DNA of 64,000 nt from an uncultured Dongia sp. (GTDB lineage: Bacteria; Pseudomonadota; Alphaproteobacteria; Dongiales; Dongiaceae), in the NCBI RefSeq assembly GCF_936916975.1, contig NZ_CAKZGO010000004.1, forward strand, positions 248,001 to 312,000, written 5' to 3'. Positions 4,192-37,016 of the stretch are shown here, one piece after another. Numbering within the stretch: position 1 is the stretch's first letter; each line of letters opens with the position of its first letter. The position numbers and the translations under genes were made by a program. Under the pieces are notes generated by a model. It saw nothing but the letters and a program-made list of their open reading frames with translations. It was not told the origin of the DNA and did no database searches.

Positions 4192-6975
4192 ATGACCACC
4201 GACAGTGGCCCCGTACCGCAGCCACCCGGCCCGCTCGATCGCCTGATCGCGCGGATCGTCGCCCGCTTCACCGGGAGCGCTACCGCGCAAGGCACCGGTC
4301 ACAAGAGCGACACGACGACCAAGCGGCTGCAGCTGCGCTATTTCGAAGATGTGCTGCCGGTCGAATTGATGCGCATCAACAAACGCCGGGAAAGGCTAAG
4401 TGATCTGCGCGAAATGGACTGGCGGAAAGCGGGCGCCAAGGATCGGCGTGAAGCGCCCGCGAAGGATCGACGGACAGCCGCGAAGGACCGACAGGAAACC
4501 GGCGTCAAGGACCCGGGCGTCAAGGATCGGCGCATCACCAGCGAACGGGACCGGCGGAAAGCGCGCCGGGGCGATGTGCAGCCGCTGCCAGCACCCAAGG
4601 CCGAAGGGCAACACCGTCGCCCTTCGCCGGACCCGGACAAACTCTTCAACGACGCCCGGGGTAACAATATCCGGCGCAGTGGCGAGCCGATCGACCCCGC
4701 GAAGCCCGATCTGCGCAAGACCCGGCCACGCCCGGTGCCCAGCGACGTCACCGGCTTGGCCTTGTCCGGCGGCGGCATCCGCTCCGCCGCCGTCTGTCTT
4801 GGCGCGCTGCAGGCGCTGCACCGGACGCAACAGCTCGACGACATCGATTATCTCTCGACGGTTTCCGGCGGCGGTTATATGGGCACCTGCCTCAGTGCCG
4901 GCATGCTGCAGGCGTTTCCCGCCAACCGGCCGACGCCTGGCGATGCCTTTCCCTTCGGCGACGACATCGCCGACAATGCTGCCATGGGCCATCTGCGCAA
5001 TTTCTCGAACTATCTGCTGCCGCGCGGGCGCAGTGGGTTGCGCAACTACGCCGAGGTGACGGCGGTCCTGTTCCGTGGCCTGCTTGCCAACGCGACGCAG
5101 GTGCTCCTCGTGCTGCTGCTCTGTGCGTTGCTGACGATGAGCGCCTTTCCGGTGCGCGACCAGCTGCACGCAGGCAGCTTTCTCGGCCAGCTGGTCGATC
5201 ATACGGTCAACGGCATCGCCCATCTGATGTATTGGCCGACCTGGCCGATCAATCATTGGGTCGGGGCCTATCCCTTCAGCCTCACCTACAAGCTGCTGGG
5301 CCTGCTTGGGCTAGTCCTGCTGGTCTGGGCCGTGCTGCGCACCTTCCTGGCGCTCGACAAGATTACCGGCGATACCAGGGGCTTCTTCCTGTTCCGCGCG
5401 CGCGAGTTGATCCTCGGCATCCTTGTCATCGCCTTTCTCGATGCCCAACCGCTCGCCATCGCCTGGTTCATCAAGTATCAGGCAACGACGCACACGCAGG
5501 ACATCCAGGATTGGTTCAAATCAATTGTGCCGGTGTTGGTCGCCTTCAGCGGCGCCGTCTCGGCGCTGAGCAGCGCGCTCGGTCACTTCCTGGAAAAGAG
5601 CGAGCACACCACCAAATGGACGACACTTGTCCTGCGTCTCGCCACCAAGGCCTTGCTGCTGGTGGCCGCCTTGGCGCTGCCGCTGGCACTCTGGCTGATC
5701 TATCTCTATCTCTGCGCCTTCGGCATCCAGGCACCCTATGGCCCGCCGGCGACATTCGTGCTGCTGGACCGCAGGATCGAGATTCCGCTGCTCTATTCAA
5801 TCGCCACCGTGCCGCTCATCGGCATCTATCTGCTGCTGCGGCCGAACAGCTATTCGCTGCACCGCTTCTACCGCGACCGCCTGAGCCGCGCCTTCGTGTT
5901 CTTCGTAAAACCCGGCAGGACCAAACCGACCTGGCTCGACGATCTCAAGCTCTCGGCCCTGCAGGATAGCCTCGGCCCCTATCACATCATCAATGCCGCC
6001 ATGAACGTGCAGGGCTCGGCCGAGGCCAACAAACGCGGGCGCGATGCGGATTTCTTCATGTTCACGCCGGATTTTATCGGCTCCGATCTCACCATGTATG
6101 GCCCCACGGTGGAGGCGATGGCCCAAACGCCGGACATGGAGAAGATCGACAAGCGCCTTGATCTTGCGACTGCGATGGCGATCTCGGGCGCTGCCGTCTC
6201 CGCCAATATGGGATCGAACACCGTGCGGCTGCTGTCGCCGACACTGGCGCTGCTCAATATCCGGCTGGGCTATTGGCTCAGGAACCCGCGCCACCTTGCC
6301 CGCGACAAGAGTGTCGCCGATCGCATGCGCACCAGTTGGGTGATCGACAAATCCTATCTGCTCCTCGAAATGCTCAACCTCCTCGACGAGACCAGTCGCA
6401 ACGTCTATCTCACCGATGGCGGGCATATCGAGAATCTCGGCGCCTATGAATTGCTCAAGCGCGGCTGCAAGGTGGTCATCGTCATTGATGCCGAGGCCGA
6501 TCCCAGCATGTCGTTCGGCTCGCTGCTCAAGCTGGAACGCTATGCGCGCATCGATCTCGGCGTGCGCATCATCCTGCCCTGGGAGGAGATTGCCCGCCGT
6601 GCCAAGCGCTATGATCGCCTGCGCCATGAAGAGGCGCCGGTGCGGCGGACGGGACCGCATTGCGCAATCGGGCGCATCATCTATGAGAACAACGCCCAGG
6701 GCGTCCTCATCTATTTCAAATCCTCGGTGACCGGCGACGAGAAGGATTATATCCTCGACTACAAGAAGCGCTTCCCGGCCTTCCCCCATGAGACGACCGG
6801 CGATCAGTTCTTCACCGAGGAACAGTTCGAAGCCTACCGGGCGCTGGGTTTCCATATGGTCAACGGCGTCTTCCAGGGGGATGACGAGGTGAGCTATCTG
6901 CGCAAGGGCCCCGGCGCGTTTACATCGGACCAGATCAAGGCGCTGAAGCAGGACTTCGCCAGTGCGCTTGTTTGA
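4192..6975 (+). CDS. Large patatin-like phospholipase with internal membrane domain
   Basis: A 927-residue protein. Residues 60-130 are highly charged with repeated KDRR/AKDRR/GVKDRR units. The patatin half follows: glycine-rich oxyanion loop LALSGGGIRSAA (about 185-196) and the nucleophile elbow STVSGGGYMG (about 218-227, in place of GxSxG). Next come about six hydrophobic segments between residues 295 and 565, for example VLLVLLLCALLTM, LLGLLGLVLLVWAVL and [21 protein letters not shown]. The patatin fold resumes with the catalytic Asp motif TDGGHIENLGAYELL near 742. The lipase is therefore split by a membrane domain. It probably hydrolyses membrane lipids at the inner membrane; the substrate is unknown. 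It is divergent from the TetR gene and shares its operator region. Confidence 0.87.
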   Translation: MTTDSGPVPQPPGPLDRLIARIVARFTGSATAQGTGHKSDTTTKRLQLRYFEDVLPVELMRINKRRERLSDLREMDWRKAGAKDRREAPAKDRRTAAKDRQETGVKDPGVKDRRITSERDRRKARRGDVQPLPAPKAEGQHRRPSPDPDKLFNDARGNNIRRSGEPIDPAKPDLRKTRPRPVPSDVTGLALSGGGIRSAAVCLGALQALHRTQQLDDIDYLSTVSGGGYMGTCLSAGMLQAFPANRPTPGDAFPFGDDIADNAAMGHLRNFSNYLLPRGRSGLRNYAEVTAVLFRGLLANATQVLLVLLLCALLTMSAFPVRDQLHAGSFLGQLVDHTVNGIAHLMYWPTWPINHWVGAYPFSLTYKLLGLLGLVLLVWAVLRTFLALDKITGDTRGFFLFRARELILGILVIAFLDAQPLAIAWFIKYQATTHTQDIQDWFKSIVPVLVAFSGAVSALSSALGHFLEKSEHTTKWTTLVLRLATKALLLVAALALPLALWLIYLYLCAFGIQAPYGPPATFVLLDRRIEIPLLYSIATVPLIGIYLLLRPNSYSLHRFYRDRLSRAFVFFVKPGRTKPTWLDDLKLSALQDSLGPYHIINAAMNVQGSAEANKRGRDADFFMFTPDFIGSDLTMYGPTVEAMAQTPDMEKIDKRLDLATAMAISGAAVSANMGSNTVRLLSPTLALLNIRLGYWLRNPRHLARDKSVADRMRTSWVIDKSYLLLEMLNLLDETSRNVYLTDGGHIENLGAYELLKRGCKVVIVIDAEADPSMSFGSLLKLERYARIDLGVRIILPWEEIARRAKRYDRLRHEEAPVRRTGPHCAIGRIIYENNAQGVLIYFKSSVTGDEKDYILDYKKRFPAFPHETTGDQFFTEEQFEAYRALGFHMVNGVFQGDDEVSYLRKGPGAFTSDQIKALKQDFASALV

Positions 6976-6987
6976 GGATCCTTCCCC

Positions 6988-7602
6988 ATGATGTCGCCTG
7001 AATTCCTGATCACCTGCCTCATCATCGTGGCCTCGCCCGGCACCGGCGTGCTCTACACGCTGGCGGCGGGGCTGGCACGCGGAAGGCGGGCCAGCATCAT
7101 CGCGGCGTTCGGTTGCACCATCGGCATCGTGCCGCATCTGGCGGCCGCCATCATGGGGCTGGCCGCCCTCCTCCACACCAGCGCGCTCGCCTTCGAGGTC
7201 TTCAAATATCTCGGCGTCGCCTATCTGCTCTATATGGCGGTGATGACCTGGCGCGAACGGGGTACTCTCAAGATCGAGGAAAAGGTCGGCGCCCGCTCTG
7301 CCTGGCAGATCACGGTGACGGCGGTCCTCATCAACATCCTCAACCCCAAGCTCTCGATCTTCTTCCTGGCGTTCCTGCCGCAATTCGTAGATGCCGCCGA
7401 CCCGCAGCCCTTGGCACGCATGCTGGAGTTGTCGGCCGTGTTCATGGCGATGACCTTCGCGGTCTTTGCAATCTATGGGATCTGTGCGGCCGCCATGCGT
7501 GACCATGTGATCTCACGACCGCGGATCCTCGCCTGGTTGCGGCGCAGCTTCGCCGCCGCTTTCGTGGCGCTGGGGGCGAAGCTGGCCTTGGCCGAACGTT
7601 AG
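6988..7602 (+). CDS. LysE/RhtB-family amino-acid exporter
   Basis: This 204-residue membrane protein has the LysE order: MMSPEFLITCLIIVASPGTGVLYTL (first segment with the conserved SPGT), GRRASIIAAFGCTIGI, FEVFKYLGVAYLLYMAV, then ILNPKLSIFFLAFLPQFV and the C-terminal WLRRSFAAAFVALGAKLAL. Members export amino acids or homoserine lactones; the substrate cannot be read here. It starts 12 bases after the patatin gene and is probably co-transcribed with it. Its stop overlaps by four bases the stop of the convergent small membrane protein. Confidence 0.9.
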   Translation: MMSPEFLITCLIIVASPGTGVLYTLAAGLARGRRASIIAAFGCTIGIVPHLAAAIMGLAALLHTSALAFEVFKYLGVAYLLYMAVMTWRERGTLKIEEKVGARSAWQITVTAVLINILNPKLSIFFLAFLPQFVDAADPQPLARMLELSAVFMAMTFAVFAIYGICAAAMRDHVISRPRILAWLRRSFAAAFVALGAKLALAER

Positions 7603-7805
7603 GGCGTCGTGGTCTCTTTGGTCGTCGTGGTCGTGGTGTTGCCGGTGGCGGGTGACGTGGTCGTCTGTTCGGTCGTGGTGCTGCTCGAGCCGCCGATATA
7701 GCCGCCCTTATAGGCAAAGAAGCCGATCACGACGGCGACGACGAGGCCGCCGACGACAAAATAAAGTCCGCTGTTATTGCTGCTGCCGCTTGATGTTTCA
7801 GCCAT
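7599..7805 (-). CDS. Small single-pass membrane protein with Thr-rich tail
   Basis: A 68-residue protein with a short Ser-rich N-terminus, one hydrophobic helix (FVVGGLVVAVVIGFFAY, residues 16-32), a GGYIGGSSS linker and a tail of almost pure Thr/Glu/Asn (TTTEQTTTSPATGN, then TTTTTTKETTTP). The ATG at 7805 has a GGAGA ribosome site. The low-complexity tail could be a periplasmic spacer. I do not recognise a function. Codon use is normal for the genome, which argues that it is real. Confidence 0.7.
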   Translation of the reverse strand: MAETSSGSSNNSGLYFVVGGLVVAVVIGFFAYKGGYIGGSSSTTTEQTTTSPATGNTTTTTTKETTTP

Positions 7806-8050
7806 GTGGGTCTCCTCGACCTCTGTCCGGCCAGGCGGCCGATACTGGCGCAGGGAATGCGCATCACCGCCACACTAGGCCCGCGCCCAGATAGCGCCAG
7901 GGTCGGAATATACCCAGGCACGTGCGGGTGCAGCGCATGGCCGCCTGCGTCATTCACCTATGCCTCGGGAACCCTTACCGCAAAACTCGGTTGTTGGGGT
8001 GAGCGTGCAGGCGCGGCCTGCCGCCATGACCTATTCCTTGAAGGTGAACC

Positions 8051-8218
8051 ATGAGCACTCTGTTGATCATTATCCTGCTGATCGTCCTGTTCGGCGGTGG
8101 CGGCGGCTATTACGCGCATCGCAGTTGGGGCGGCCGCGGTCTCGGCGGCGTGCTCGGCCTCGTGCTGCTCGTCATCATCGTGCTGTGGCTGGTCGGCGGC
8201 CTCGGGCGTCCAATCTAA
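8051..8218 (+). CDS. DUF3309-like small hydrophobic protein
   Basis: A 55-residue protein, too short for most gene finders, from ATG 8051 to TAA 8218. It reads MSTLLIIILLIVLFGGGG, then GYYAHRSWGGRGLGGVLG, LVLLVIIVLWLVGGLGRPI. The two membrane helices around a Gly-rich GYYAHR...GLGGVLG turn match the DUF3309 family, which is widespread and of unknown role in proteobacteria. The ribosome site is AAGGTGA, five bases before the ATG. It stands alone between two reverse-strand genes. Confidence 0.82.
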   Translation: MSTLLIIILLIVLFGGGGGYYAHRSWGGRGLGGVLGLVLLVIIVLWLVGGLGRPI

Positions 8219-8227
8219 CGGGCCAGT

Positions 8228-10857: not shown

Positions 10858-11010
10858 GGGCATCCACATTGATCATTTGAGATAGGAGACGACTGTTCTT
10901 AATTCGGTTTGGCGCCACAAACGAAATGCCCAACACGACATTGCGTAATACACTTTTCACTATTATATTCTGAATATCCTTCTCGTAAATGCCCTTCGAA
11001 AGGGATCTGC

Positions 11011-13095: not shown

Positions 13096-13116
13096 TACGC
13101 TACGCGCCGCTGCCTC

Positions 13117-13386
13117 TTATTTCTTAACCAACGGCACCCAGGTGAAGTGCAGCGCCAGCATCGCGACCGCACCGATGCCGACTGTGGCATAGCCAAGGAC
13201 CGGGTTGGACGTGTTCTGCGCGAACAGCACGCCGATCAGGAAGGGAACCACGGCCGCGAAGCTTTTCACCCAGGGGACGCCGATCTTGCCGCCGCAGTTC
13301 TGGCACGTCGCGGGGACGGCGGGGCCGAGCATGGCGCGGCGGGTCCAGGAGATGCCGGGCTGGTTGCAATGCGGGCAGGTGTACAT
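13117..13386 (-). CDS. Zinc-ribbon membrane protein
   Basis: An 89-residue protein beginning MYTCPHCNQPGISWTRR. Four cysteines in two CxxC pairs (CPHC at 4-7, CQNC at 28-31) form a rubredoxin-like ribbon, and two hydrophobic helices follow (FAAVVPFLIGVLFA and ATVGIGAVAMLALHF). A GGGGAGA site precedes the ATG at 13386. Similar small ribbon-plus-two-helix proteins are common and uncharacterised. It lies beside the AT-rich nuclease gene but has host-like composition. Confidence 0.75.
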   Translation of the reverse strand: MYTCPHCNQPGISWTRRAMLGPAVPATCQNCGGKIGVPWVKSFAAVVPFLIGVLFAQNTSNPVLGYATVGIGAVAMLALHFTWVPLVKK

Positions 13387-13495
13387 CGGGTGGTCTCCCC
13401 CTCTTGGGTGTTGGTGGCTGCGGTGCGTCGTGGTGGAGCAACACATGGCGCGGTGGTTTGTGCCTTGGATTGTTGGACCGCACCATGCTGATGGA

Positions 13496-13532
13496 AACTC
13501 GTGGGTGGTCGGCCTTCGCCGACCATGACGAG
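13496..13532. repeat. Palindromic repeat, copy A (GGTCGGC stem)
   Basis: The sequence AACTCGTGGGTGGTC followed by the hairpin GGTCGGC-CTTC-GCCGACC and ATGACGAG. The same core recurs at 15915-15951, 15971-16009, 48875-48914 and 49275-49314. A degenerate second hairpin (GTCGACCTTCGCCGAC) follows at 13540-13556. It fills part of the 250-base gap between the zinc-ribbon gene and the cupin gene. Confidence 0.85.
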
Positions 13533-13634
13533 GGAGAGTGGTCGACCTTCGCCGACCGGCGACCATGGCGATTGAGGACCGCCCATGACGATTGGGCGAG
13601 AGGGTCAGGCAGGACCCATCCCCGCATTGCGCCG

Positions 13635-13964
13635 TCAATCGACGATGAAGAGCTTGGCGCCGGTTTGGGTGGAGGAGCGATGTGGCTCGGCATTGTCGGC
13701 GACCTGATAGCTCATGCCGGGCTTTAGCGTGAAGACGCGGCCGTCTTCCAGCTCGGTCCGCAATTCTCCCTCGAGGCAAAAGAGGATGTGACCTTTGATG
13801 CACCAATGATCGGCGAGGTAGCCCGGCGAATATTCGACCAGGCGCACGCGCATGTCGCCGAAATTTCGGGTACGCCAGAGGGCGATGCCGCTATCCCCCT
13901 TATGCTCGGTAGGCGCCACGGTCGACCAATCCGTCGTGCCGAACGGGATGGCGCTCATCTTCAT
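13635..13964 (-). CDS. DHCW-motif cupin-fold protein
   Basis: A 109-residue single cupin. The family motif is visible as ADHWCIKGHILFCLEGEL (about residues 51-68), followed by the second cupin motif around MSYQVADNAEPHRSS. It begins MKMSAIPFGTTDWS at ATG 13964, which has a GGGGAGG ribosome site; a longer frame from 13994 adds ten unconvincing residues. The family is named for its motif and has no proven reaction; the conserved His and Cys could bind metal. It lies 31 bases downstream of the SDR gene on the same strand, so the two are probably co-transcribed. Confidence 0.88.
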   Translation of the reverse strand: MKMSAIPFGTTDWSTVAPTEHKGDSGIALWRTRNFGDMRVRLVEYSPGYLADHWCIKGHILFCLEGELRTELEDGRVFTLKPGMSYQVADNAEPHRSSTQTGAKLFIVD

Positions 13965-13995
13965 CTCAACCTCCCCTGGCTGCCTTGGGCGCAAT

Positions 13996-14736
13996 TCACA
14001 GCAGATGCTGCCCGCCGGTAAGGAACACTTCCGTCCCCGTCACATAGGCAAAATCCGGCCCGCAGAGTTGGAAGATGACGCCGGCCACTTCGGCTGGCGT
14101 GCCCATGCGGCCCATCGGGATACGCGGGATGAGGGCTTCGTATTCGGGGCCGATCATGGCGGTTTCGATCTCGCCGGGGGCGACGGCATTCACGCGCACG
14201 CCCAAGGGTGCGAACTCACCGGCCATTTCGCGCGTCAGGGCCGAGAGGGCGGATTTCGAGGTCGAATAGGCAGCACCGGCGAAGGGGTGGATCGAATGGC
14301 CGGCGATCGAGGTGATGTTGACGATGGCGCCCTTGGCCCTCGCGAGAGGGGTCGCGAAGCCCTTGGCGAGCTGCAGCGGGGCAAACAGATTGAGCTCATA
14401 GACCTCGCGCCAGGCGGCGACGTCGCCGTTGAGCGTGCCCAACCGTTCCTTGAACGAGGTCTTGGGGCTAATCGCGGCGTTGTTGATGAGCGCGTGGACG
14501 GGGGCACCGCCCAGCACGTCGAGCGCCTCGCTCACGAACTTGCCGGCGTCACCCGGTTCGGCGAGGTCGACGGTGATGTGATGCGCCCAGTTGGGGTCGC
14601 GCTTGCACTCATCCGGGATCGCGTCGCGCGAGCAGGTGATGATGCGCCAGCCTTCGGATGAGAAGCGCTGCACCGTCGCATGGCCGATGCCGCGGCTGGC
14701 GCCGGTCAGGATCACGGTCTTTCTGGTTTCGGTCAT
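13996..14736 (-). CDS. Short-chain dehydrogenase/reductase
   Basis: A 246-residue classical SDR: cofactor loop TGASRGIG (residues 11-18), NNAA motif (ALINNAAISP, about 84-93), catalytic Ser in NITSIAGHS and YxxxK in YSTSKSALSAL (about 158-168). The C-terminus IPMGRMGTPAEVAGVIFQL and VTGTEVFLTGGQHLL is typical. The arginine (CSRD) after strand 2 suggests NADP preference, by family rule. The substrate is not readable. It sits before the DHCW cupin in the same direction. Confidence 0.92.
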   Translation of the reverse strand: MTETRKTVILTGASRGIGHATVQRFSSEGWRIITCSRDAIPDECKRDPNWAHHITVDLAEPGDAGKFVSEALDVLGGAPVHALINNAAISPKTSFKERLGTLNGDVAAWREVYELNLFAPLQLAKGFATPLARAKGAIVNITSIAGHSIHPFAGAAYSTSKSALSALTREMAGEFAPLGVRVNAVAPGEIETAMIGPEYEALIPRIPMGRMGTPAEVAGVIFQLCGPDFAYVTGTEVFLTGGQHLL

Positions 14737-14764
14737 TTGGCCTTCGTCCTCAATCGTCTTTTCA

Positions 14765-14921
14765 TCAGTCGCTCCCCCTCACCTAACCCTCCCCCACGTT
14801 GGGGGGAGGGGACTCTAGCCAGTTTGAACGCGACCCATGCGACAACTCGGTGAGCTCCCTCCCCCGCCCGCCGACGAATGTCGGCCTTCGCCGACAGTGG
14901 GGGAGGGTCGGGGAGAGGGGG
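14765..14921. repeat. Long intergenic inverted repeat with internal CTTC hairpin
   Basis: Outer arms CTCCCCCTCACCTAACCC/TCCCCCAC and GTGGGGGAGGGTC/GGGGAGAGGGGG are complementary. Near the right arm lies the perfect hairpin TGTCGGC-CTTC-GCCGACA (14879-14896), which shares its core with the GGTCGGC repeat family. It fills the gap between the CDF gene and the SDR gene, both on the reverse strand, so it is also transcribed from the reverse strand. Confidence 0.7.
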
Positions 14922-14939
14922 TGTTAGCAACAAATCCGC

Positions 14940-15908
14940 TCATCCATCTCTTGCCTCATCCGCCGCCAGCAGCGCGCTGCGCCCTGGCCGGGATTGGTCC
15001 ATGCGGGCGCGGAGGTCTTGCCGGCGTTCCACCACCGCATGGGGGTCCTGGTGGATGATGATCTCGGCGCCGGGGAATTCGGTTTGCAGCGCAGCCTCGA
15101 CCGCGTCGGAGATGACATGTGCCGCCATCAGCGAAATGTCATCGGGCAGTTCGAGATGGAACTGGATGAACACATCCTGCCCGGCCGCACGGGTGCGGAG
15201 GTCGTGGAGGTTGAGGGCCTGGGGGTGGCGTTTGACGATCTCCATGATGCGGGCGCGTTCGGAATCGCTCATCTCGCGGTCCATCAGCATGTCGAAGCTC
15301 TGCCGGCCGATGCGGATCGCGGTATAGGCGATGTAGATCGCCACCAAGAGCCCGAACAGCGGGTCGGTCCACCAGATACCGAATTCGGCCGAGATGACGA
15401 GGGCGGCGATGACGCTGAAATTCACCAGGAAATCGCTGCTGTAATGGGCGGAATCGGCGCTGACCGCGATCGACCCGGTGCGCTTTACGACATGGCGCTG
15501 CAGCAGGATGAGCCCGCCGGTGATGACGATCGAGAGCACCATGATGCCGATGCCGATCTCGGGATTTTCGACCGGCTTCGGGTGCCTGAAATGGTCGTAG
15601 ACCTCCATGAGGAGGAGAAGCGAGGAGCCGAGGATGAACGCCACCTGGACGAGGCCTGCCAGCGGTTCCGCCTTGCCATGGCCGAAGCGATGTTCGGCAT
15701 CGGCCGGCATCAGGGCATGGCGCACGGCCAGCAGATTGACCAGCGAAGCCGCGATGTCGAGGGCGGAGTCAAAGAGCGTCGAGAGCAGGCTCACCGAGCC
15801 GGTCGCGAGATAGGCGTAGAATTTGAGGCCGATCATGATGACGGCCGCCGCCACCGCCGCGTTGGTGGCCAGCCGCATGAGACGCGCGGCGTCTTCGCGG
15901 GTGGTCAT
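14940..15908 (-). CDS. Cation diffusion facilitator (CDF) metal exporter
   Basis: A 322-residue inner-membrane proton/metal antiporter, FieF/YiiP-like. Six membrane segments are visible, with metal-site motifs DSALDIAAS in helix 2 (D-x3-D) and SAHYSSD in helix 5 (H-x3-D), which together form the transport site. The cytoplasmic C-terminal domain has a ferredoxin-like fold with LHDLRTRAAGQDVFIQFHLEL and IIHQDPHAV. The D/D-H/D quartet fits the Zn/Fe/Cd branch. The ATG at 15908 begins directly after a palindromic repeat (copy B), which therefore lies in the 5' leader. Confidence 0.93.
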   Translation of the reverse strand: MTTREDAARLMRLATNAAVAAAVIMIGLKFYAYLATGSVSLLSTLFDSALDIAASLVNLLAVRHALMPADAEHRFGHGKAEPLAGLVQVAFILGSSLLLLMEVYDHFRHPKPVENPEIGIGIMVLSIVITGGLILLQRHVVKRTGSIAVSADSAHYSSDFLVNFSVIAALVISAEFGIWWTDPLFGLLVAIYIAYTAIRIGRQSFDMLMDREMSDSERARIMEIVKRHPQALNLHDLRTRAAGQDVFIQFHLELPDDISLMAAHVISDAVEAALQTEFPGAEIIIHQDPHAVVERRQDLRARMDQSRPGRSALLAADEARDG

Positions 15909-15914
15909 TTCAGA

Positions 15915-15951
15915 TCGTCATGGTCGGCGAAGGCCGACCACCCACGAGTTG
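15915..15951. repeat. Palindromic repeat, copy B
   Basis: TCGTCATGGTCGGCGAAG followed by GCCGACCACCCACGAGTT, the inverse orientation of copy A. It is immediately upstream of the CDF gene and is paired, 19 bases away, with copy C in the opposite orientation, making an inverted pair between the CDF and pdxH genes. Confidence 0.85.
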
Positions 15952-15970
15952 CTTTCTTTGCGCGGACGGA

Positions 15971-16009
15971 AATTCGTGGGTGGTCCGCCTTCGCGGACCA
16001 TGACGAATT
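15971..16009. repeat. Palindromic repeat, copy C (GGTCCGC stem)
   Basis: AATTCGTGGGT followed by GGTCCGC-CTTC-GCGGACC and ATGACGAATT. Relative to copies A and B, the fifth stem pair is C-G instead of G-C, with both sides changed. This is a compensatory change that keeps the hairpin. Confidence 0.85.
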
Positions 16010-16035
16010 GAAAGAGCGATATGTTGCCATATCCC

Positions 16036-16692
16036 TCACGGATAGAACTTCTCCGTCACCCAGGACTCGCCCCAGGCGGCACCCGGTGCCGGCGTGTAGA
16101 CCAGCCGGTCGTGGAGTCGGAACGGGCGGTCTTCCCAGAATTCGATATAGCTCGGCTTGATGCGGAAGCCGGACCAATGCGGCGGGCGCGGGATGGTGCC
16201 GATGGGGTGTTTCGCGGTGAACAGCGCCACGCGCTTTTCGAGATCGAAGCGGTTCTGCATCGGGCGCGACTGGATCGACGCCCAGGCGCCGAGCTGGCTG
16301 CTGCGCGGTCGCGAATGATAATAATCATCAGCTTCCTGATCCGTCACCACCTCGACCTCGCCTTCGACGCGGATCTGGCGGCGCAAGCTCTTCCAATGCA
16401 GCACGATCGCGGCTTTCATGGCGTGAAGGATCTGCGTGCCCTTCTTGCTTTCGAAATTGGTGTAGAAGACGAAGCCGCGTTCGTCGAAATCCTTCAGCAG
16501 CACCATGCGCACCGAGGGCATGCCATCCGCGCCGACGGTCGCCAGCGCCATGCCGTTGGGATCGTTGGGTTCGGAGGCTTCCGCTTCCTTCAGCCAGGCG
16601 GCGAATTGCTGGAAAGGCTCGCCCCAAGGATGGCGGGCTTTGGAGTCGAGATCTGCGTCGGTCGCGGTATCGGTCATGATCGGCCTGTTCAT
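16036..16692 (-). CDS. pdxH: Pyridoxamine/pyridoxine 5'-phosphate oxidase
   Basis: Makes pyridoxal 5'-phosphate from PNP or PMP using FMN and oxygen, in the cytoplasm. The 218 residues show FMN-binding [18 protein letters not shown] and [27 protein letters not shown], the [11 protein letters not shown] segment and the C-terminal signature [29 protein letters not shown] chose the ATG at 16692 ([10 protein letters not shown]) because AAAGGA lies five bases before it; a longer frame to 16803 overlaps the divergent lipoprotein gene. Its length matches the family. It is divergent from the glycine-zipper lipoprotein. Confidence 0.96.
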
Positions 16693-16787
16693 CACATTCC
16701 TTTGACCAACTTCTATAGCATTGAATTTGGAACCGGATGCCGCCATTTTCATTATGATTTCGGCGCCATTTGACACAGGATTCGGTG

Positions 16788-17306
16788 ATGAAAATGTCTG
16801 CACACATGTCGCGCGACGGCTTTGCCGGGAAGATCATCGCCGGCGCCCTGGTGGCTGCCCTGGCTTTGCCGCTCGCCGCCTGCTCCGCCAACTCCTATGG
16901 CGGGGGCAAGCAGAACACCGGGACCGTGCTGGGCGCCGTGGGCGGTGCAGCGGCGGGTGCTGCCATCGGCGGCAAGGATAATTGGTGGTGGGCGGCGGGC
17001 CTGGGTGCCCTGGCCGGCGGTGTGGTCGGCAACCAGGTCGGCGCCTATCTCGACCGCCAGGACCAGCAGACCTCCTACCAGACGGCCAACCGCGCGCTCA
17101 ATTCCGTGCCGGACGGGCAACAGGCCAAATGGTCCAATCCGCAGAACCAGACCAGCGGCTATACCAAGCCGACCGAGACGGTGCAGACGGCCAGCGGCCA
17201 GACCTGCCGCGAGTTCCAGACCGGCGTCACCGCGCAGGGCCAGACCAGCACCGGGACCGGCACGGCGTGCCGCCAGCCCGATGGCACTTGGAAAATCGTC
17301 CGCTAG
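16788..17306 (+). CDS. Glycine-zipper outer-membrane lipoprotein
   Basis: A 172-residue lipoprotein. The signal peptide ends in the lipobox LPLAAC (Cys about residue 26). A Gly-zipper follows ([18 protein letters not shown] and [19 protein letters not shown]), the arrangement of 17 kDa surface antigen / SlyB-like proteins. A C-terminal domain has the conserved Cys pair in [10 protein letters not shown] and [13 protein letters not shown]. It probably sits in the outer membrane facing the periplasm. The start at 16788 (MKMSAHMSR) was chosen over 16770 since the signal peptide then has a normal length. Confidence 0.88.
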
Positions 17307-17353
17307 CCCCTATTTTTCTGCCATGACGAATTATTCGCGTGGCGGAAACCTGC

Positions 17354-18292
17354 ATGCCCGATCCCTATAAGACGCTGGGCGTCGGCCGACTCGCCACGGC
17401 AGATGAGATCAAGAAGGCTTATCGCAAGCTGGCGAAGAAGCTGCATCCCGATCTCAATCCCGGCGACAAGAAGATCGAGTCTCAGTTCAAAGAGATCAGC
17501 GCCGCCTATGACATGCTCTCGGATGTCGAGAAGCGGCGGAAATATGATCGCGGCGAGCTCGACGACAATGGCAATCCCCGCGCCGGCTTCCAGGCCGGCA
17601 ATCCCTGGGGCGCTGCGCGCCCGGGTGCCGGTCAGGCGGGTGGGCGCGCCCGCACGGCCAAGGATTTCGGCATCGACGAAGGCGACAATGACGAGATCTT
17701 CAAGGATTTCTTCGGCTTCGGTCGCGGCCGCAGCGGCTTCAAGATGCGCGGCGCCGACGTCACCTATCGGCTGGAAGTCGATTTCGTCGATGCCGTGAAT
17801 GGTGGCAAGAAGCGCCTAGGCCTCGCCGACGGGAAGACGCTCGATGTCACCTTGCCGCCCGGCACCGAGGATGGCAGCCAGCTGCGCCTCAAAGGCCAAG
17901 GCATGCCCGGCCAGGGGGGTGCCCCTAATGGCGATGCCTTTGTCGAGATCGGCGTGAAGGCGCATCCATTCTTCGAGCGCGACGGCCTCGACATCCTGCT
18001 GGAATGCCCGATCACCCTCACCGAAGCCGTGCTTGGCGGCACGGTGCAGGTGCCGACCATTGATGGCCGCGTGGCGCTCAAGGTGCCGATCGGCAGCAAT
18101 TCCGGCACGCAGTTACGCCTGAAGGGCAAGGGTATCTTGAACGCCAAGACCAAGGCGCGCGGCGATCAATATGTGCGCTTTGTCGTGACCTTGCCCGCCA
18201 ACATCGATGCCGATCTCGAAGCGAAGATCCGCGATTGGTCGAAGGCACATCCCTATGACGTGCGCGGCAAGTTCGACCTCAAGACTTCGTGA
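17354..18292 (+). CDS. DnaJ-class co-chaperone, CbpA-like
   Basis: A 312-residue J-protein without the zinc finger. The J domain (residues 1-70) has YKTLGVGRLATADEIKKAYR and the HPD triad in LHPDLNPGDKK. A Gly/Phe linker around 75-125 follows (GFQAGNPWGAARPGAGQ), then two DnaJ C-terminal beta domains (VTYRLEVDFVDAVNGGKK, LPPGTEDGSQLRLKGQG, LKVPIGSNSGTQLRLKGKG). It would stimulate DnaK ATPase. The ATG at 17354 gives MPDPYKTLGV, a normal start. CbpA and DjlA-type J-proteins share this layout; a CbpA-type role is inferred. Confidence 0.93.
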   Translation: MPDPYKTLGVGRLATADEIKKAYRKLAKKLHPDLNPGDKKIESQFKEISAAYDMLSDVEKRRKYDRGELDDNGNPRAGFQAGNPWGAARPGAGQAGGRARTAKDFGIDEGDNDEIFKDFFGFGRGRSGFKMRGADVTYRLEVDFVDAVNGGKKRLGLADGKTLDVTLPPGTEDGSQLRLKGQGMPGQGGAPNGDAFVEIGVKAHPFFERDGLDILLECPITLTEAVLGGTVQVPTIDGRVALKVPIGSNSGTQLRLKGKGILNAKTKARGDQYVRFVVTLPANIDADLEAKIRDWSKAHPYDVRGKFDLKTS

Positions 18293-24830: not shown

Positions 24831-27068
24831 ATGAGCATTCGCTCCCGCCTCCTGATCCTGGTGCTTCTGGCGACCCTGGTGCCCGGAATTCTGGTGGGCT
24901 TGCGCTTCTGGCAGGACCGCACGGCGGGCATTGCCGCCGCCCAGATCGGCCTTTCCGAGATGGCCCAGGTCATCACCCATGACCTCGACGAAAAGATCAA
25001 CGGCACGGCCCAGCTTCTTTACGGCCTGGCGCGCGCCCGCGACCTCGAGACCACGGACCGTGCGGCGTGTTCGCGCTTCCTCTCCGACGTGCGCGGACAG
25101 AATCCGCAATATACCGGCATCCTGACGATCCAGCCCGATGGCGCCCTGTTCTGCGATTCACTGCAATCGGGCCGAGAGCTCAAGCTCACCGACCGCAGAT
25201 ATTTCCAAAAGGCCTTGGAGCTGCCGGCAGGTGTTGCGCTGGAGCCGACGTTCGGCCGGTTGACCGGCCTCGCCGTGCTGCAGATCGCACAGCCCGCGCT
25301 GGCAGAAAACGGCATGCTTCAATTCATCCTGCTGGCTTCGTTCAATCTGCAGAAATTTGTCGATGGCTATGATTCGCAGCGGCAGGAAACCGAAATTCTG
25401 CTGGTCGCGAAGAACGGCACCGTGCTGGTGTGGCTGCCGGCCGGCGAACAGATTTCCCCACTCGGCACGTCGATTGCCGAGAGCGACCTCTTCCGCGCGG
25501 CCCAGGACGGCCTGACAGGGGCCACAGGCGGCGAGGTCGCGGTCATCAACCACGATCAAAAGGTCTGGGCGGTCGCCGATTCCGCGGTGACACAGGACGC
25601 CGGGCTTTATGTGATGGTCGGCCTGCCCGAGAGCGAACTGGTGGCGGCGGCAAACCGCCGCCTCGGGCAGGATCTCGGCACGCTCATTGCCGTTTCGCTG
25701 CTGCTCTTTGCCGGCGTGTGGACATTTGCCGAGCTCAGCATCCGGCGCCAGGTCGGCCTCATTGCCGCGATGACGGCGAAACTGGGCCAGGGCGATCTCT
25801 CTGCTCGCATTCCCCCGCCACATCCCAAGGGCGATTTGGGCGAGTTGATGGCGCTGCTCAACGGCACGGCGCAATCGCTGGAGCGGCAGCGCGATGCGAT
25901 CGAGGAACTGGATCAGAAGCTGCGCCAGTCGCAGAAGATGGAGGCGCTCGGACAGCTGACCGGCGGGATCGCCCATGACTTCAACAACCTGCTGACGGTC
26001 GTCATGGGCAATGCCGAGCTGCTGGCGGAACGCCTGACCGCGCAGCCGCAATTGCAGGGGCTGGCGGAAATGACCGCCAAGGCCGCGACACGGGGTGCCG
26101 AGCTGACCAACCGGCTGCTGGCCTTTGCGCGGCGCCAGCCACTCCATCCCAAGGTGCTCGACGTCAACCAGCTGATCGCCGGCATGGATGGCCTGCTGCG
26201 CCGGACGCTGGGCGAGCAGATCGAGATCAGGATCGTGCGGCAGCCCGGACTCTCGGCGGCGCTGGTCGATCAAGGCCAGCTTGAGAACGCTCTCCTTAAC
26301 CTGTGCATCAATGCGCGCGATGCGATGCCGGGCGGTGGGCGCCTCACCCTCGAAACCGCCAATGCCGACCTTGATTCAGCCTATGCGACACCGCTGGCCG
26401 AGGTCGAGCCTGGGCGCTACGTCATGATCGCCGTGTCCGATACCGGCATCGGGATGGACGGCATCACCTTGGAACGCGCCTTCGAGCCGTTCTTTACGAC
26501 CAAGGAGATGGGCCGGGGCAGCGGCCTTGGCCTCAGCATGGTCTATGGCTTCGTGAAGCAGTCGAAGGGGCATGTGCAGCTCTATTCGGAACTCGGCCAC
26601 GGCACCACGGTCCGGCTCTATCTGCCGCGCGCTGAGGGTGCTGCCGAGGTGGCGCCGGAGACACGCAGCGTCGCAGTGCCGACAGGCGGCAGTGAAAAAA
26701 TCCTGCTGGTCGAAGATGATGACATCGTACGCGACCATGTCGCGGCTCAATTGGCGAGCCTGGGATATGACGTTGTCCCGGTGCCCGGCGGCATGGAAGC
26801 CATCGCGGCGCTGAAGGCACGCGCGGATTTCGATCTCCTCTTCACGGACATTGTCATGCCCGGCGGCATCGACGGTCGCCAACTGGCAGAGGAAGCACAT
26901 AGACTTCGACCGACGCTGCCGATCCTCTTCACCTCCGGCTATTCCGAGCACGCCATCGTGCATCAGGGGCGTCTCGATGCCGGACACTACTTCCTCGCCA
27001 AGCCGTTTCGCCGGCAGGATCTGGCAGCCAAGGTGCGCGCCGTGCTGGACCAGGACGCCAAGGCTTAG
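24831..27068 (+). CDS. Hybrid sensor histidine kinase
   Basis: A 745-residue membrane kinase. It has a first helix at residues 7-27, a periplasmic Cache-like sensor to about 285, a second helix around 278-300, and HAMP to 355. The phospho-His is His382 in GGIAHDFNNLL, followed by an HWE-like ATP-lid region (NALLNLCINARDAM, DTGIGM, GSGLGLSMVYGF). A C-terminal receiver has Asp673 in LFTDIVMPGG and SGYSEHAI. The IAHDFNN form marks the orthodox HisKA subgroup with a built-in receiver. It probably signals to the CheY-like protein encoded divergently. The stimulus is unknown. Confidence 0.95.
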   Translation: MSIRSRLLILVLLATLVPGILVGLRFWQDRTAGIAAAQIGLSEMAQVITHDLDEKINGTAQLLYGLARARDLETTDRAACSRFLSDVRGQNPQYTGILTIQPDGALFCDSLQSGRELKLTDRRYFQKALELPAGVALEPTFGRLTGLAVLQIAQPALAENGMLQFILLASFNLQKFVDGYDSQRQETEILLVAKNGTVLVWLPAGEQISPLGTSIAESDLFRAAQDGLTGATGGEVAVINHDQKVWAVADSAVTQDAGLYVMVGLPESELVAAANRRLGQDLGTLIAVSLLLFAGVWTFAELSIRRQVGLIAAMTAKLGQGDLSARIPPPHPKGDLGELMALLNGTAQSLERQRDAIEELDQKLRQSQKMEALGQLTGGIAHDFNNLLTVVMGNAELLAERLTAQPQLQGLAEMTAKAATRGAELTNRLLAFARRQPLHPKVLDVNQLIAGMDGLLRRTLGEQIEIRIVRQPGLSAALVDQGQLENALLNLCINARDAMPGGGRLTLETANADLDSAYATPLAEVEPGRYVMIAVSDTGIGMDGITLERAFEPFFTTKEMGRGSGLGLSMVYGFVKQSKGHVQLYSELGHGTTVRLYLPRAEGAAEVAPETRSVAVPTGGSEKILLVEDDDIVRDHVAAQLASLGYDVVPVPGGMEAIAALKARADFDLLFTDIVMPGGIDGRQLAEEAHRLRPTLPILFTSGYSEHAIVHQGRLDAGHYFLAKPFRRQDLAAKVRAVLDQDAKA

Positions 27069-27080
27069 CCGCCAGGTGAC

Positions 27081-29666
27081 CTACTCACCCGGCGCCAGAC
27101 CTCGGCGCGGCCCGCGCCACAGGGTGTGGGCGAGCGGGGTGTTGCGCAGCCAGCGGCTCAAACGTTGCACCGCATGATGGACGGCAAGGCCTAAGGCCAG
27201 GCCGAGCACAAAATGGATGATGTCATCATAGGGTTTAGCCAAGGCAGCATCTTCCAGCCACAGGAAGAACGGCACGTTGTGAAAGAGATAGATGCAGTAG
27301 CTGGCCGCGGCAACGCTGGCGAGGATTTGTGCGAGATGCCGCGGCAGCAGGATGTTGGCGCACCATAGCAGGATGAGGCTGCTGCCGATGACCACGCCGG
27401 CGCGCACCCACAGGATGCTGGCCTTGGCTTCTTCGTACCAGGGCAGTCCCAGAAACAAAGCGACGATGAGCAGCGTCATGAACGCGCGTTTGGCGCCCGT
27501 ATCGGCGAAATAGAGACACCAGCCGAGGGCGGCCAGATAGAAGATGCGCGGCGTGGCGAAGGCGCGCATCTCGCCCGCATTCCACAATTGCGGCTGCAGC
27601 TCACGGGCCAAGATTGCGAATACCAGGCAGAGAAGGCCGGCGGCGAATGAGTGGCGTGCCACGAAACGGCGCAAGGGCGCCCAGGCAAAGAGGCCGGCCA
27701 CGACCAGCATCACCTGCGCATAGGCTTCGATGAACCAATAGGCGACGAGCGGTGTCGGCATGGTGGAATAGCCATCGATCCCGAGATTGCCCAGCAGAAC
27801 CAGGCTCTGCCAGGGATAGCGCCCGGTATAGAAGCAATAGCCGAGCAGTACGGCGTAATAGAGCAGCAAGGGGCGGAGTGTCGCGCGCAGCATGACGCCG
27901 ATCCTGCCAGAGAGCAGCAGCCCGCCCTGGAAGCGCGCCAGATTGTAGCCAACCAGCACCATCAGGGTCGCAGCACCGCCGGCGATCTCCCACAGCGTCG
28001 CGTGATGCAGCACGATGAACAGGATCGCGAGCGCACGCAGCACATGGCTGGTGTCGAGCGGGCGCCAGGCAGCGAACCAGTTTTGCCACAGGGGGAGTTG
28101 TTTCGCGGGCACGGGTTGCGCGCCGGTCAGCTCAGCGATGCTGCGCTGTTCCCAATCCCGCGGCAGGGATCCCAGGATTTCTTCCAGCGCCAGAGAGAGC
28201 TGCACGAAGGACAGCGAATCGCCACCAAGCCGGACGAAGCTGTCGTCCGGACGCAGCGGCCTGGGCGCGAAGGTCGCCGCAAAGGCGTCGTGCACGGATT
28301 CCGGTCGGGCGGTGTCCTGCCGATCGTCAAACAGGGCAGCGACAGCGCCGTAATCCAGCTTGCCATTCGCCCCGCGCGGCAGTTCATCGACGGGGACGAT
28401 GCGGATGAAGGTGGGATTGAGGGCACAAGCGGCGGCAATCTCGGTACGCAAGGCAGCGATCTCCGCCGCCGTCGCGATACCGCTACAGGCCACGCGGATT
28501 TCGCGGTCGTCGCCCGTCACGGCGAGGCCGCGGCCCGGCACCTCGAACAAGCGTTCGAGATGGTCATGGCCAAGGCGCAGGCCGGCGATCTTGGAGAAGC
28601 GGCTGCGGCGGCCGGTGATGCGATAGAAACCGGCGGCGGTCCGTTCGGCAAGATCGCCGGTGCGCAGTTCAACAAGCTCGGCGCCGCGCGCCAGATCATC
28701 GCGGCAGGTGGCATAACTCATCATCACATTGGGGCCGCGATAGACCAGCTCACCCGCCTGCCCAATTGCGTTGATGCTGTGGCCTTGGTCGTCGATGAGT
28801 GAAAGCGTGCCGCCAGGAATCGCCTCACCGATGCAGTCGGGGTGAGCGAGGGCGGCATGTGGCGGCAGATAGGCGATGCGCGAAGTAGCCTCGGTCTGGC
28901 CATACATGACGAAGAACTGAGTGCCACGGCGAGCGAGGTGACCGGCATAGAGCCGCACCAGATCCGGCGCCAAGCGTCCACCCGCAACACTCATGAAGCG
29001 AAGGTCGGGCAAATCATTTTCGCGGAAGCCGATCTGTTCCAGGAGCTCGAAGCTGTAGGGAACACCAGCAAGATTCGTGCAGCGGGCAGCACGGATGTTG
29101 GTGACGAAATCCGGCGCCAGGATATGCGGGGTGCCCAAGTAGAGGCTGGCGCCGACAGAGAGATGGGCATGCAGGACCGAGAGGCCATAGGCGTAATGGA
29201 GCGGCAGAATCAGCGCTGTGCGGTCATCGGCACGGAGGTTCTGATAGTCGGCGATCGAGCCGGCGTTGGCGGCAAGATTCGCGGCCGAGAGCCGCACCAG
29301 CTTTGACGCTCCGGTGCTGCCGGAGGTGGCGAGCAGGAGTGCGAGGTCCGGGTGATACGGCGTCGGCACATCCGGCCGATACGTGTCGATCAGCTGCGCG
29401 CGGTGCCGGGCGGCGTGAGGGTTCGCATCCAGCGGTGGCACGGGCAGCACCGGATGCCCCGCCTTGAGGGCGGCAAGATACTGCGCGATGGCATCGGGTT
29501 CGGCGTGCGCCTCCCACAGAACGAGTCGGCGTTCGGGACCGAAATCAGCCACATATGCGTCGACTTCAGCCGCAAGGTCGCGGTAGGAGATCGCGCGACC
29601 ATCGCCGCAGACCAGGGCAACGCGATCGCCATGCCGTGCCAGATCGTGTGCAAAGGAAACGCCCAT
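27081..29666 (-). CDS. Adenylation-carrier-acyltransferase-3 fusion protein
   Basis: An 861-residue three-part protein. Residues 1-460 are an AMP-forming acyl ligase: LLLATSGSTGASKLVRLS, VMYGQTEATSRI and TGDLAERTAAGFYRITGR. Residues 465-545 are a carrier domain, with the phosphopantetheine Ser484 in RLGGDSLSFVQLS. From about 550 an integral acyltransferase-3 domain begins RALAILFIVLHHATLWEIAGG, with about ten helices. The logic is that an acyl group is activated, loaded on the carrier, and passed to a membrane-bound acceptor. I set the start at ATG 29666 (MGVSFAHDL); the upstream frame is Pro-rich non-coding sequence. The substrate is unknown. It stands alone, convergent with the kinase gene. 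Confidence 0.88.
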   Translation of the reverse strand: MGVSFAHDLARHGDRVALVCGDGRAISYRDLAAEVDAYVADFGPERRLVLWEAHAEPDAIAQYLAALKAGHPVLPVPPLDANPHAARHRAQLIDTYRPDVPTPYHPDLALLLATSGSTGASKLVRLSAANLAANAGSIADYQNLRADDRTALILPLHYAYGLSVLHAHLSVGASLYLGTPHILAPDFVTNIRAARCTNLAGVPYSFELLEQIGFRENDLPDLRFMSVAGGRLAPDLVRLYAGHLARRGTQFFVMYGQTEATSRIAYLPPHAALAHPDCIGEAIPGGTLSLIDDQGHSINAIGQAGELVYRGPNVMMSYATCRDDLARGAELVELRTGDLAERTAAGFYRITGRRSRFSKIAGLRLGHDHLERLFEVPGRGLAVTGDDREIRVACSGIATAAEIAALRTEIAAACALNPTFIRIVPVDELPRGANGKLDYGAVAALFDDRQDTARPESVHDAFAATFAPRPLRPDDSFVRLGGDSLSFVQLSLALEEILGSLPRDWEQRSIAELTGAQPVPAKQLPLWQNWFAAWRPLDTSHVLRALAILFIVLHHATLWEIAGGAATLMVLVGYNLARFQGGLLLSGRIGVMLRATLRPLLLYYAVLLGYCFYTGRYPWQSLVLLGNLGIDGYSTMPTPLVAYWFIEAYAQVMLVVAGLFAWAPLRRFVARHSFAAGLLCLVFAILARELQPQLWNAGEMRAFATPRIFYLAALGWCLYFADTGAKRAFMTLLIVALFLGLPWYEEAKASILWVRAGVVIGSSLILLWCANILLPRHLAQILASVAAASYCIYLFHNVPFFLWLEDAALAKPYDDIIHFVLGLALGLAVHHAVQRLSRWLRNTPLAHTLWRGPRRGLAPGE

Positions 29667-29896
29667 GGTAATTCTATCCCGCCAAAACCTGCAGGCCGCG
29701 ATGCGGCCGATCTTCAATGCGGCTGACGGGATGCGGCCGACCGATGGGCCGGGCGCTCTCGCTGGCGGGTGATCGGGAAAAGACATGCCGGGCGGCGGAG
29801 GCGGCGTCAAGGCGTCGCGGTACCGGCATATGACAGACAGTGGCGGTTCACGCTAATCTGACGGCCATTTCCGCAAGTGGATCAGGGGGATCGGTC

Positions 29897-33218: not shown

Positions 33219-33773
33219 ATGAATCGGAAATTGATGGGTGCGATGACGGCCTTGACCCTGCTCGCCGGCAGTTCGTTGGCGGCACTCGCGGTGGAGAATC
33301 CGATGGTCGGCGGTGCGCCGATGTACGATTCGAAGAACATCATCGAGAATGCGCTCAATTCCAAGGATCACACCACGCTGGTGACCGCCGTGAAGGCGGC
33401 CGGTCTGGTCGAGACCTTGCAAGGGCCGGGGCCGTTCACCGTGTTTGCACCGACCAATGCAGCCTTCGCGGCCTTGCCGGCCGGTACCGTCGAGACGCTG
33501 GTGAAGCCGGAGAACAAGGACACGCTGACTGGTATCCTCACCTATCACGTGGTGCCCGGCAAACTGGACAGCAAGGCGCTTGATGCCGCCATCAAGGCCG
33601 GCAACGGCAAGGCCATGCTGAAGACCGTGAACGGCGAGGAGCTCACCTTTGAAGGCACGGGCATGAAGCTCATGCTGACCGACTCAAAGGGCCATAAGGC
33701 CCACGTCACCGTCGCCGATGTCTATCAGTCCAACGGTGTCATCCAGGTGATTGATACCGTGCTGATGCCGTAA
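33219..33773 (+). CDS. Exported fasciclin-domain protein
   Basis: A 184-residue protein with a signal peptide (ALTLLAGSSLAALA) and one FAS1 domain: NPMVGGAPMYDSKNIIENA, TLQGPGPFTVFAPTNAAFAAL (H1 motif), YHVVPGKL (H2 motif region) and the end GVIQVIDTVLMP. It is closely similar, including the NPMVGGAPM opening, to the lipoprotein at 36459, so the pair is a duplication. FAS1 proteins mediate adhesion or bind polysaccharide and small molecules in the periplasm. A Rho-independent terminator follows at 33805. Confidence 0.93.
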   Translation: MNRKLMGAMTALTLLAGSSLAALAVENPMVGGAPMYDSKNIIENALNSKDHTTLVTAVKAAGLVETLQGPGPFTVFAPTNAAFAALPAGTVETLVKPENKDTLTGILTYHVVPGKLDSKALDAAIKAGNGKAMLKTVNGEELTFEGTGMKLMLTDSKGHKAHVTVADVYQSNGVIQVIDTVLMP

Positions 33774-36458: not shown

Positions 36459-37016
36459 TTACGGCAGCAGGACCGTGTCGACGACGTGAATAACGCCGTT
36501 CTTCTGATAGACGTCGGCGATGGTGACCTTGGAAACATCGCCTTTTTCGTCGGTGACGGTGATGCCGTTGCCCATGCCCATCAGGGTCAGTTTTTCACCG
36601 TTGACGGTGGTGAGTTCCGCCTTGCCGCCGCCGGCCTTGATATCGGCCATAAGGGCATTTGAATCGAGCGTGCCAGGCACGACGTGATAGGTCAGAATGC
36701 TGGTCAGCATCTGTTTGTTTTCCGGCTTCACCAGCGTTTCCACGGTGCCGGCGGGCAGCTTGTCGAAGGCGGCGTTGGTGGGAGCGAAGACCGTGAACGG
36801 GCCGGGGCTCTGCAACGTATCGACGAGATCGGCAGCCTTGACCGCCGCCACCAGGGTGGTGTGGTCCTTGGAGTTTACCGCGTTTTCGACGATGTTCTTC
36901 GAGGCAAACATGGGCGCCCCGCCAACCATCGGATTTTCCGACTTCATCATGGCATTCGACGAACAGCCGGCCGCAATCGTGCACGCGAGCAGCGTGCCCA
37001 GGATCTTCGCTTTCAT
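36459..37016 (-). CDS. Fasciclin-domain lipoprotein
   Basis: A 185-residue lipoprotein with a lipobox ending AAGC (Cys about 18) and one FAS1 domain. It repeats the sequence of the protein at 33219: ENPMVGGAPMFASKNIVENA, TLQSPGPFTVFAPTNAAFDKL, YHVVPGTLDS and GVIHVVDTVLLP. It would be membrane-anchored where the first is soluble. The pair sit 3 kb apart in opposite orientations, with terminators after each. FAS1 domains typically act in adhesion or ligand binding. Confidence 0.93.
   Translation of the reverse strand: MKAKILGTLLACTIAAGCSSNAMMKSENPMVGGAPMFASKNIVENAVNSKDHTTLVAAVKAADLVDTLQSPGPFTVFAPTNAAFDKLPAGTVETLVKPENKQMLTSILTYHVVPGTLDSNALMADIKAGGGKAELTTVNGEKLTLMGMGNGITVTDEKGDVSKVTIADVYQKNGVIHVVDTVLLP

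Follow-up and report, generated by a model that had tools for sequence, protein, structure and literature searches.

Organization of the fusion gene

The window, a 64,000-nucleotide stretch of DNA from an uncultured Dongia sp., carries on its minus strand an open reading frame (ORF) encoding an 861-residue chain, with an ATG at position 29666 and a stop codon ending at 27081 (Table 1); stops are present on the plus strand across the same interval. A longer in-frame start is available (TTG at 29810, giving 909 residues), but the alignments with homologues start at the ATG. Three Pfam domains pass their gathering scores, i.e., AMP-binding (142.8 versus 29.9; residues 98-318), PP-binding (24.7 versus 20.8; residues 470-513), and Acyl_transf_3 (residues 542-829), the last being a weak match (34.1 versus 31 bits). 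The ORF, the three domain matches, and the motifs described below confirm the chain proposed by a first-pass annotation of this DNA, in which an acyl-AMP ligase, a carrier domain (Ser484), and a membrane acyltransferase-3 (AT3) are joined. In a model of the whole chain, the relative placement of the two halves is uncertain (pTM 0.62).

Table 1. Position of the fusion gene and of its domains in the window
Feature	Position	Strand	Basis
Adenylation-carrier-AT3 (A-T-AT3) fusion, whole gene, 861 residues plus stop	27081..29666	-	Pfam, motifs, homologues
Adenylation domain, residues 1-450	28317..29666	-	Pfam AMP-binding, PDB alignments, fold match, conservation
Carrier (thiolation) domain, approximately residues 455-520, LGGDSL	28107..28304	-	Pfam PP-binding, Ser484 in 84/84 aligned fusions
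AT3/TmAT acyltransferase domain, approximately residues 536-845, ten long helices	27132..28061	-	Pfam, model, HGSNAT match, conservation

A sensor-kinase-like ORF on the plus strand (24831..27068) ends 12 bases from the fusion, and a divergent methyltransferase-like ORF begins at 29840 on its other side, both names coming from reading of the sequence. Many of the surrounding ORFs (LysR-like, YedK-like, fabI-like, and aroC-like) are common by eye to genome G001 of the same genus, in which the fusion (locus L025, 8598-11267) adjoins the fabI-like gene, whereas in the window it sits between the LysR-like and YedK-like genes. Its neighbors are different again in genome G012. The fusion therefore appears to have changed place, and this lineage shows no conserved partner. 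Between L025 and the window, the gene neighborhood is the same but the position of the fusion within it is not, which would fit either a local move or two separate gains.

Elsewhere in the window, a 728-residue ORF with a TTG start (10909-13095, plus strand) looks nuclease-like by eye and was possibly acquired; the 10-14 kb stretch that contains it has a G+C content of 53%, versus 63% for the window. Two similar small ORFs in opposite orientation and 3 kb apart (33219-33773, plus strand; 36459-37016, minus strand) have the motif FTVFAPTNAAF in common and are presumably fasciclin-like.

Distribution and conservation of the fusion

Full-length homologues occur in related genomes at 53% and 50% identity, and full-length matches were found in 3 of 61 relatives, counting the genome of origin. 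At the level of the class, the carrier-AT3 half is present in 4 of 385 genomes (E ≤ 1e-10). Prevalence was estimated for Pseudomonadota only: of 398 genomes, nine matched at E ≤ 1e-20; eight of these carry the fusion in one long frame (869-1158 residues), and in the ninth, G609, it is split (342-residue frame). A contig scan of named genomes kept the best 80 of 549 relatives and is therefore biased toward close, full-length ones, with identities of 35-51% and alignments that nearly all span most of the query. Judging by record titles, 52 of these 80 loci are actinobacterial. One of them (L033) duplicates the record of L025, the relative with 53% identity, and was dropped, so that the alignment of 84 fusions comprises the window, L025, L026, L031, L032, and 79 of the 80 scan loci. 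Ser484, R544, H555, Y793, and H796 are kept in all 84 rows, as is the catalytic Lys436, although many rows are close strains and such counts do not represent independent events.

The full-length homologues and the 80 matching loci indicate that the fusion did not arise by chance; it is conserved and, by its sequence, looks functional. The first-pass annotation suggested a search for the same domain order and named separate halves in all relatives as a refutation; the search returned single-chain relatives (84 aligned rows), so that the refuting case does not apply. In a tree of 63 of the aligned fusions, actinobacterial and other rows separate with 91 and 93% SH-aLRT support (not starred); the distant L031 stands apart, and the window groups with L025, then with L026 and L032. 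A phmmer search with the adenylation domain of L089 as the query gave no match at E 1e-20. In the plasmid records whose features were inspected, relatives are annotated only as "AMP-binding protein" or "AMP-dependent synthetase."

No conserved neighbor is common to the whole set of proteobacterial fusion loci, and those of Ensifer/Sinorhizobium have neighbors in common among themselves. An adenylate-cyclase-like regulator is found among the genes after the fusion in several Rhizobium (L052, 13739-15665; L124, 13817-15734), along with a gene pair resembling YcaO and TfuA. Three relatives, possibly two (L031, L056, and L162), lie among genes read as sugar-polymer genes from sequence alone, and the product may be an acylated glycan or lipid, as the first-pass annotation suggested. 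One of these is the split pair of G609 (L162), in which an adenylation-carrier gene (4295..6262; AMP-binding by Pfam) overlaps an AT3 gene (6255..7271; Acyl_transf_3) and which adjoins ORFs reading as glycosyltransferases and a sugar transferase. The occurrence of the two parts as overlapping genes supports their joint action. Next to the distant fusion of genome G155 (L031), ORFs at 12508-17574 resemble by eye an MBOAT, an FkbH-like protein, and an FMN-dependent 2-hydroxyacid dehydrogenase. They read as an additional acylation system within this sugar-polymer locus, where an IS3-like transposase lies at 7013-8311.

The adenylation domain probably activates a small carboxylic acid

The adenylation domain carries a TSGSTG loop (residues 114-119), the catalytic Lys436, and Arg263, and its loop, TGD motif, A10 lysine, and fold are those of an ANL adenylating enzyme (PF00501). 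Its closest sequences are small-acid enzymes, namely PltF, VinN, and oxalyl- and malonyl-CoA ligases. Structural matches of the whole-chain model are tied at Z 33-35 and include FACL13 (top row, Z 35.4), PltF, VinN, HitB, and MatB. In amino-acid-activating relatives, an aspartate reads the substrate amino group (D230 in VinN and D235 in GrsA, according to passages of PMC11253843). The corresponding position of the fusion, residue 159, is Ser, Cys, Ala, or Gly in 84/84 rows and never Asp. Arg263, present in all 84 rows, aligns with Arg331 of VinN across a one-residue gap, and because the loop differs by one residue, this equivalence is only a lead to the substrate. Most pocket columns compared are the same in actinobacterial and other fusions, with exceptions such as 159, 205, and 227, which argues for one substrate class. 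Taken at the level of sequence, the acid that is adenylated is probably a small carboxylic acid and not an alpha-amino acid.

Alternatively, the domain might be a fatty acyl-AMP ligase whose product is an acylated membrane lipid, since long-chain acyl-CoA ligases are among its NCBIfam matches and FACL13 heads the tied structural rows. Given that the nearest sequences are small-acid enzymes and that Arg263 is invariant, we consider a fatty-acyl system quite unlikely. The best NCBIfam match, TIGR03098, falls far under its cut-off (145.7 versus 592.35 bits), and membership among exosortase-A ligases was rejected on this basis.

The carrier serine lies in the LGGDSL motif (codon 28215-28217), and phosphopantetheinylation of Ser484 is possible, as the genome of the window contains two PF01648-type phosphopantetheinyl transferase matches. 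Besides AMP-binding, PP-binding, and Acyl_transf_3, Pfam found only a sub-threshold DUF2238 in the window protein, with no condensation or thioesterase domain. Both were likewise missing from the same tally over a set of 38 fusion members (A4), in which PP-binding matched 33 and Acyl_transf_3 matched 32 (E ≤ 0.01). Membership among NRPS siderophore synthetases was rejected for want of these two domains.

The membrane half is a divergent AT3/TmAT acyltransferase

The AT3 half contains R544-X10-H555 in TMH1 and Y793, the Tyr of the SxxxY motif, in TMH9, together with H796. Modeled alone, it reached a pLDDT of 89.4 and a pTM of 0.89 and matched HGSNAT (Z 14.4, 274 aligned residues, 4.8 Å) and GWT1 (Z 10.9, 268 aligned residues, 6.1 Å), the next match having a Z of 6.1. 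A Foldseek comparison of this half with the PDB gave no match at E ≤ 0.001; its top match was again HGSNAT (E 0.096, probability 0.97). No AT3 fold is among the structural matches listed for the whole-chain model, which the adenylation domain filled. By its gathering score, modeled ten-helix fold, R-X10-H motif, and TMH9 tyrosine, the AT3 half is predicted to fold as a TmAT.

In TmAT proteins, the acyl-CoA site is described as comprising DxxR in TMH1, FxxxxG in TMH2, RxxR in TMH3, and the TMH9 Tyr, with basic residues at the 3′-phosphate (passages of PMC9833829 and PMC12423673). For comparison with the fusions, we took 29 AT3 loci from relatives, leaving out fusion loci and choosing the frame automatically by hydrophobicity; 27 had a readable R/K-X10-H. 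In this contrast of one lineage (84 fusions) with a mixed set (27 AT3), Asp at R-3 (DxxR) was found in 0/84 fusions versus 17/27 stand-alone AT3, F....G in 2/84 versus 22/27, and RxxR.xP in 2/84 versus 14/27. All 84 fusions have Leu or Met at the aligned TMH2 position, and one Arg of the TMH3 region is often retained (R594 in 55/84 and R598 in 52/84). Judged by these motifs, the window protein is a divergent member of the AT3/TmAT family and not a canonical CoA-using one. The depletion of the CoA-site motifs is compatible with a donor that lacks the CoA nucleotide, namely the fused carrier.

AT3 proteins are nonetheless described as acyl-CoA users (PMC12423673 and PMC9833829), and the halves might merely be tethered, with the AT3 using ordinary acyl-CoA and the adenylation-carrier part serving another reaction. 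We regard this as very unlikely in view of the single chain in 84/84 aligned rows, the overlapping split pair in G609, and the depletion of CoA-site motifs. The activate-hold-transfer logic that the first-pass annotation ascribed to one gene is well supported by the motifs kept in 84/84 rows, the modeled TmAT fold, and the G609 pair, at the level of sequence and model.

Actinobacterial relatives are linked to a predicted iron response

The surprising part of this family is a linkage to iron, which lies in relatives and not in the window. Importer genes were located in 84 loci (the 80 scan loci plus L025, L026, L031, and L032) by tblastn with examples of FbpA, FbpB, and FbpC, which replaced a length-based picking of ORFs that had been misled by antisense ORFs in high-GC Actinobacteria. 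An FbpA-type gene is present in 42/84 fusion loci and in 39 of the 52 actinobacterial ones. The match in L039 is weak (57 bits, more than 6 kb off, and without the tandem Tyr). The layouts vary: importer and fusion may be divergent (L070), or run in one direction with the importer first (L089 and L109), or have the fusion first (L083 and L094). Linked solute-binding proteins match ferric-binding structures (L070 to 7w3w, E 1.6e-76; L089 to 7li0, E 1.6e-87), and the tandem Tyr is found in 40/42, the exceptions being L039 and the short L105. NCBIfam gave the linked importer no iron-specific name, its best matches (2-aminoethylphosphonate and other transporters) being far under cut-off; the ferric-iron reading comes from the structure matches, the tandem Tyr, and the iron boxes. 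At least three motif types occur at the tandem Tyr (NHYYWY, YHYYW, and NNHYYLA; e.g., in L070, L063, and L089), which would be consistent with repeated joining of different importers to the fusion.

Upstream regions were scanned with a 19-bp sequence that we take to be the DtxR/IdeR iron-box consensus, and a box was called when at least 13 of 19 bases matched within -350 to +30 of the fusion start. Of 51 actinobacterial loci (L072 being too short), 36 have a predicted box before the fusion, compared with 21/1020 shuffles and 6/1814 windows elsewhere in the same loci, and 17 of these boxes fall in the interval from -31 to -23. Among the 11 loci with fbpABC ahead of the fusion, 10 have a predicted box before fbpA. 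Altogether, the fusion or its importer operon has a predicted box in 46/52 actinobacterial loci and none in 6/52: four have an importer without a box (L094, L099, L106, and L109) and two have neither (L072 and L095). In 11 actinobacterial loci, a predicted box occurs without an importer having been found. Both the linkage and the boxes are direct observations, from which we infer regulation, namely that the actinobacterial fusion belongs to a DtxR-type iron-starvation response with a ferric-iron ABC importer.

The fusion had been described as standing without biosynthetic partners. This holds for the lineage of the window, where it is alone, but not for the family, given the ferric-iron ABC importer and iron boxes linked to actinobacterial fusions. 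In the window's lineage, the region before the fusion showed no iron box, and an FbpA homologue (43%) in the window's genome is encoded far from it. Searches for Fur/Irr boxes before the 32 non-actinobacterial fusions revealed no excess over shuffles.

Conceivably, a surface-held or secreted iron ligand is made by the whole family, including the window's copy. The importer linkage and iron boxes of Actinobacteria would fit this, as would the near-identical pocket columns in both groups and an importer linked separately to the fusions of Rhizobium giardinii and R. herbae (L048 and L049), whose solute-binding proteins are only 27-35% identical to actinobacterial ones, bar one short fragment at 44%, so that this linkage may have arisen independently. 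We nevertheless judge it unlikely, because no iron signal was found in the window's lineage, an importer adjoins the fusion in just those 2 of 32 non-actinobacterial loci (the L039 match being weak and distant), and two or three relatives sit in sugar-polymer loci instead.

Proposed mechanism

Domains, motifs, and fold are seen directly in the sequence or model of the fusion; from them, we infer the adenylation, loading, and transfer steps, the donor, and the membrane side. The cytosolic adenylation domain would adenylate a small carboxylic acid, probably not an alpha-amino acid, and load it as a thioester onto the phosphopantetheine carried by Ser484 of its own chain. The AT3 domain would then take the acyl-pantetheine arm into its pore from the cytosolic side and, through a catalytic center that includes His555, transfer the acyl group to an extracytoplasmic acceptor.

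With moderate confidence, we thus read the gene as a self-contained, carrier-fed envelope acyltransferase that in Actinobacteria is part of a DtxR-type iron response with a ferric importer. A bolder version, in which one polypeptide is a complete iron-starvation acylation pathway, seems doubtful: a metal-liganding acid, charged onto the protein's own carrier, would pass through the TmAT pore to an extracytoplasmic acceptor and yield an Fe(III) ligand, secreted or kept at the surface, from which FbpABC would receive iron, a siderophore-like system that lacks a condensation domain. If the carrier-fed reading is true, AT3 proteins can take their donor from a carrier protein and not from CoA, the acyl groups that they can export may be as varied as adenylation domains allow, and the fusion offers a tractable one-gene model of acyl transfer across a membrane. 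Attention is also drawn to an unstudied gene that would belong to the iron response predicted for common soil Actinobacteria.

Comparison with known systems

An AT3 review names fusions to SGNH and alanine-racemase domains (PMC9558356), with NRF and unspecified eukaryotic fusions mentioned in later papers (PMC9833829 and PMC12423673); passages of these three sources make no mention of an adenylation-carrier fusion to AT3. Open-licence PMC literature, mostly at the level of titles and abstracts, yielded no description of the architecture or its iron link, nor do the parts consulted of two iron-box papers describe the fusion (PMC3219685 and PMC3388012). AT3-only and AT3-SGNH acyltransferases (OafB, OatA, and OafA) have R-X10-H, SxxxY, and the ten-helix fold in common with the window protein. 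In AT3-SGNH proteins, however, the extra domain is at the C terminus of AT3, whereas the window protein has its adenylation-carrier part at the N terminus of AT3 and does not keep DxxR, FxxxxG, and RxxR.

Among ligases, VinN-type stand-alone adenylation domains (3-methylaspartate) resemble the fusion in fold (Z 34.5, 26% identity) and in the alignment of Arg331 with Arg263, but the window protein lacks Asp230, has a loop one residue longer, and is fused to a carrier and AT3. The exosortase-A-associated acyl-CoA ligase model TIGR03098, the best NCBIfam match of the adenylation domain, represents a ligase only.

The closest functional parallels are multiprotein. In the Dlt system for teichoic acid D-alanylation (DltA ligase, DltC carrier, and DltB MBOAT), an adenylated substrate is likewise loaded onto a carrier and handed to a membrane acyltransferase from the cytosolic side (passages of PMC11035591 and PMC3783018); DltB is reported to receive the D-alanyl group from DltC on that side, the pantetheine arm being long enough for its tunnel (PMC11035591). 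Dlt differs in consisting of separate proteins with an MBOAT, whereas the window protein is one chain with an AT3/TmAT and without the amino-acid-reading Asp. Membership was rejected on the TmAT fold in place of MBOAT and on residue 159, which is never Asp. AlmE-AlmF-AlmG, described in part of PMC3783018 as a similar chain for LPS, follows the same three-step logic in a Gram-negative bacterium (lipid A glycylation in Vibrio cholerae), and PDB matches of the window protein include 4OXI, a structure of AlmE. The Alm proteins are separate, AlmG is described as being of the LPLAT type (PMC3783018), and the substrate is glycine; the roles of AlmE and AlmF are given differently in the text of PMC3783018 and a table of PMC11253843. 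By analogy, the fusion may be viewed as a single-chain equivalent of DltA-DltC-DltB or AlmE-AlmF-AlmG, a member of neither, with a TmAT/AT3 fold in the seat of the transferase.
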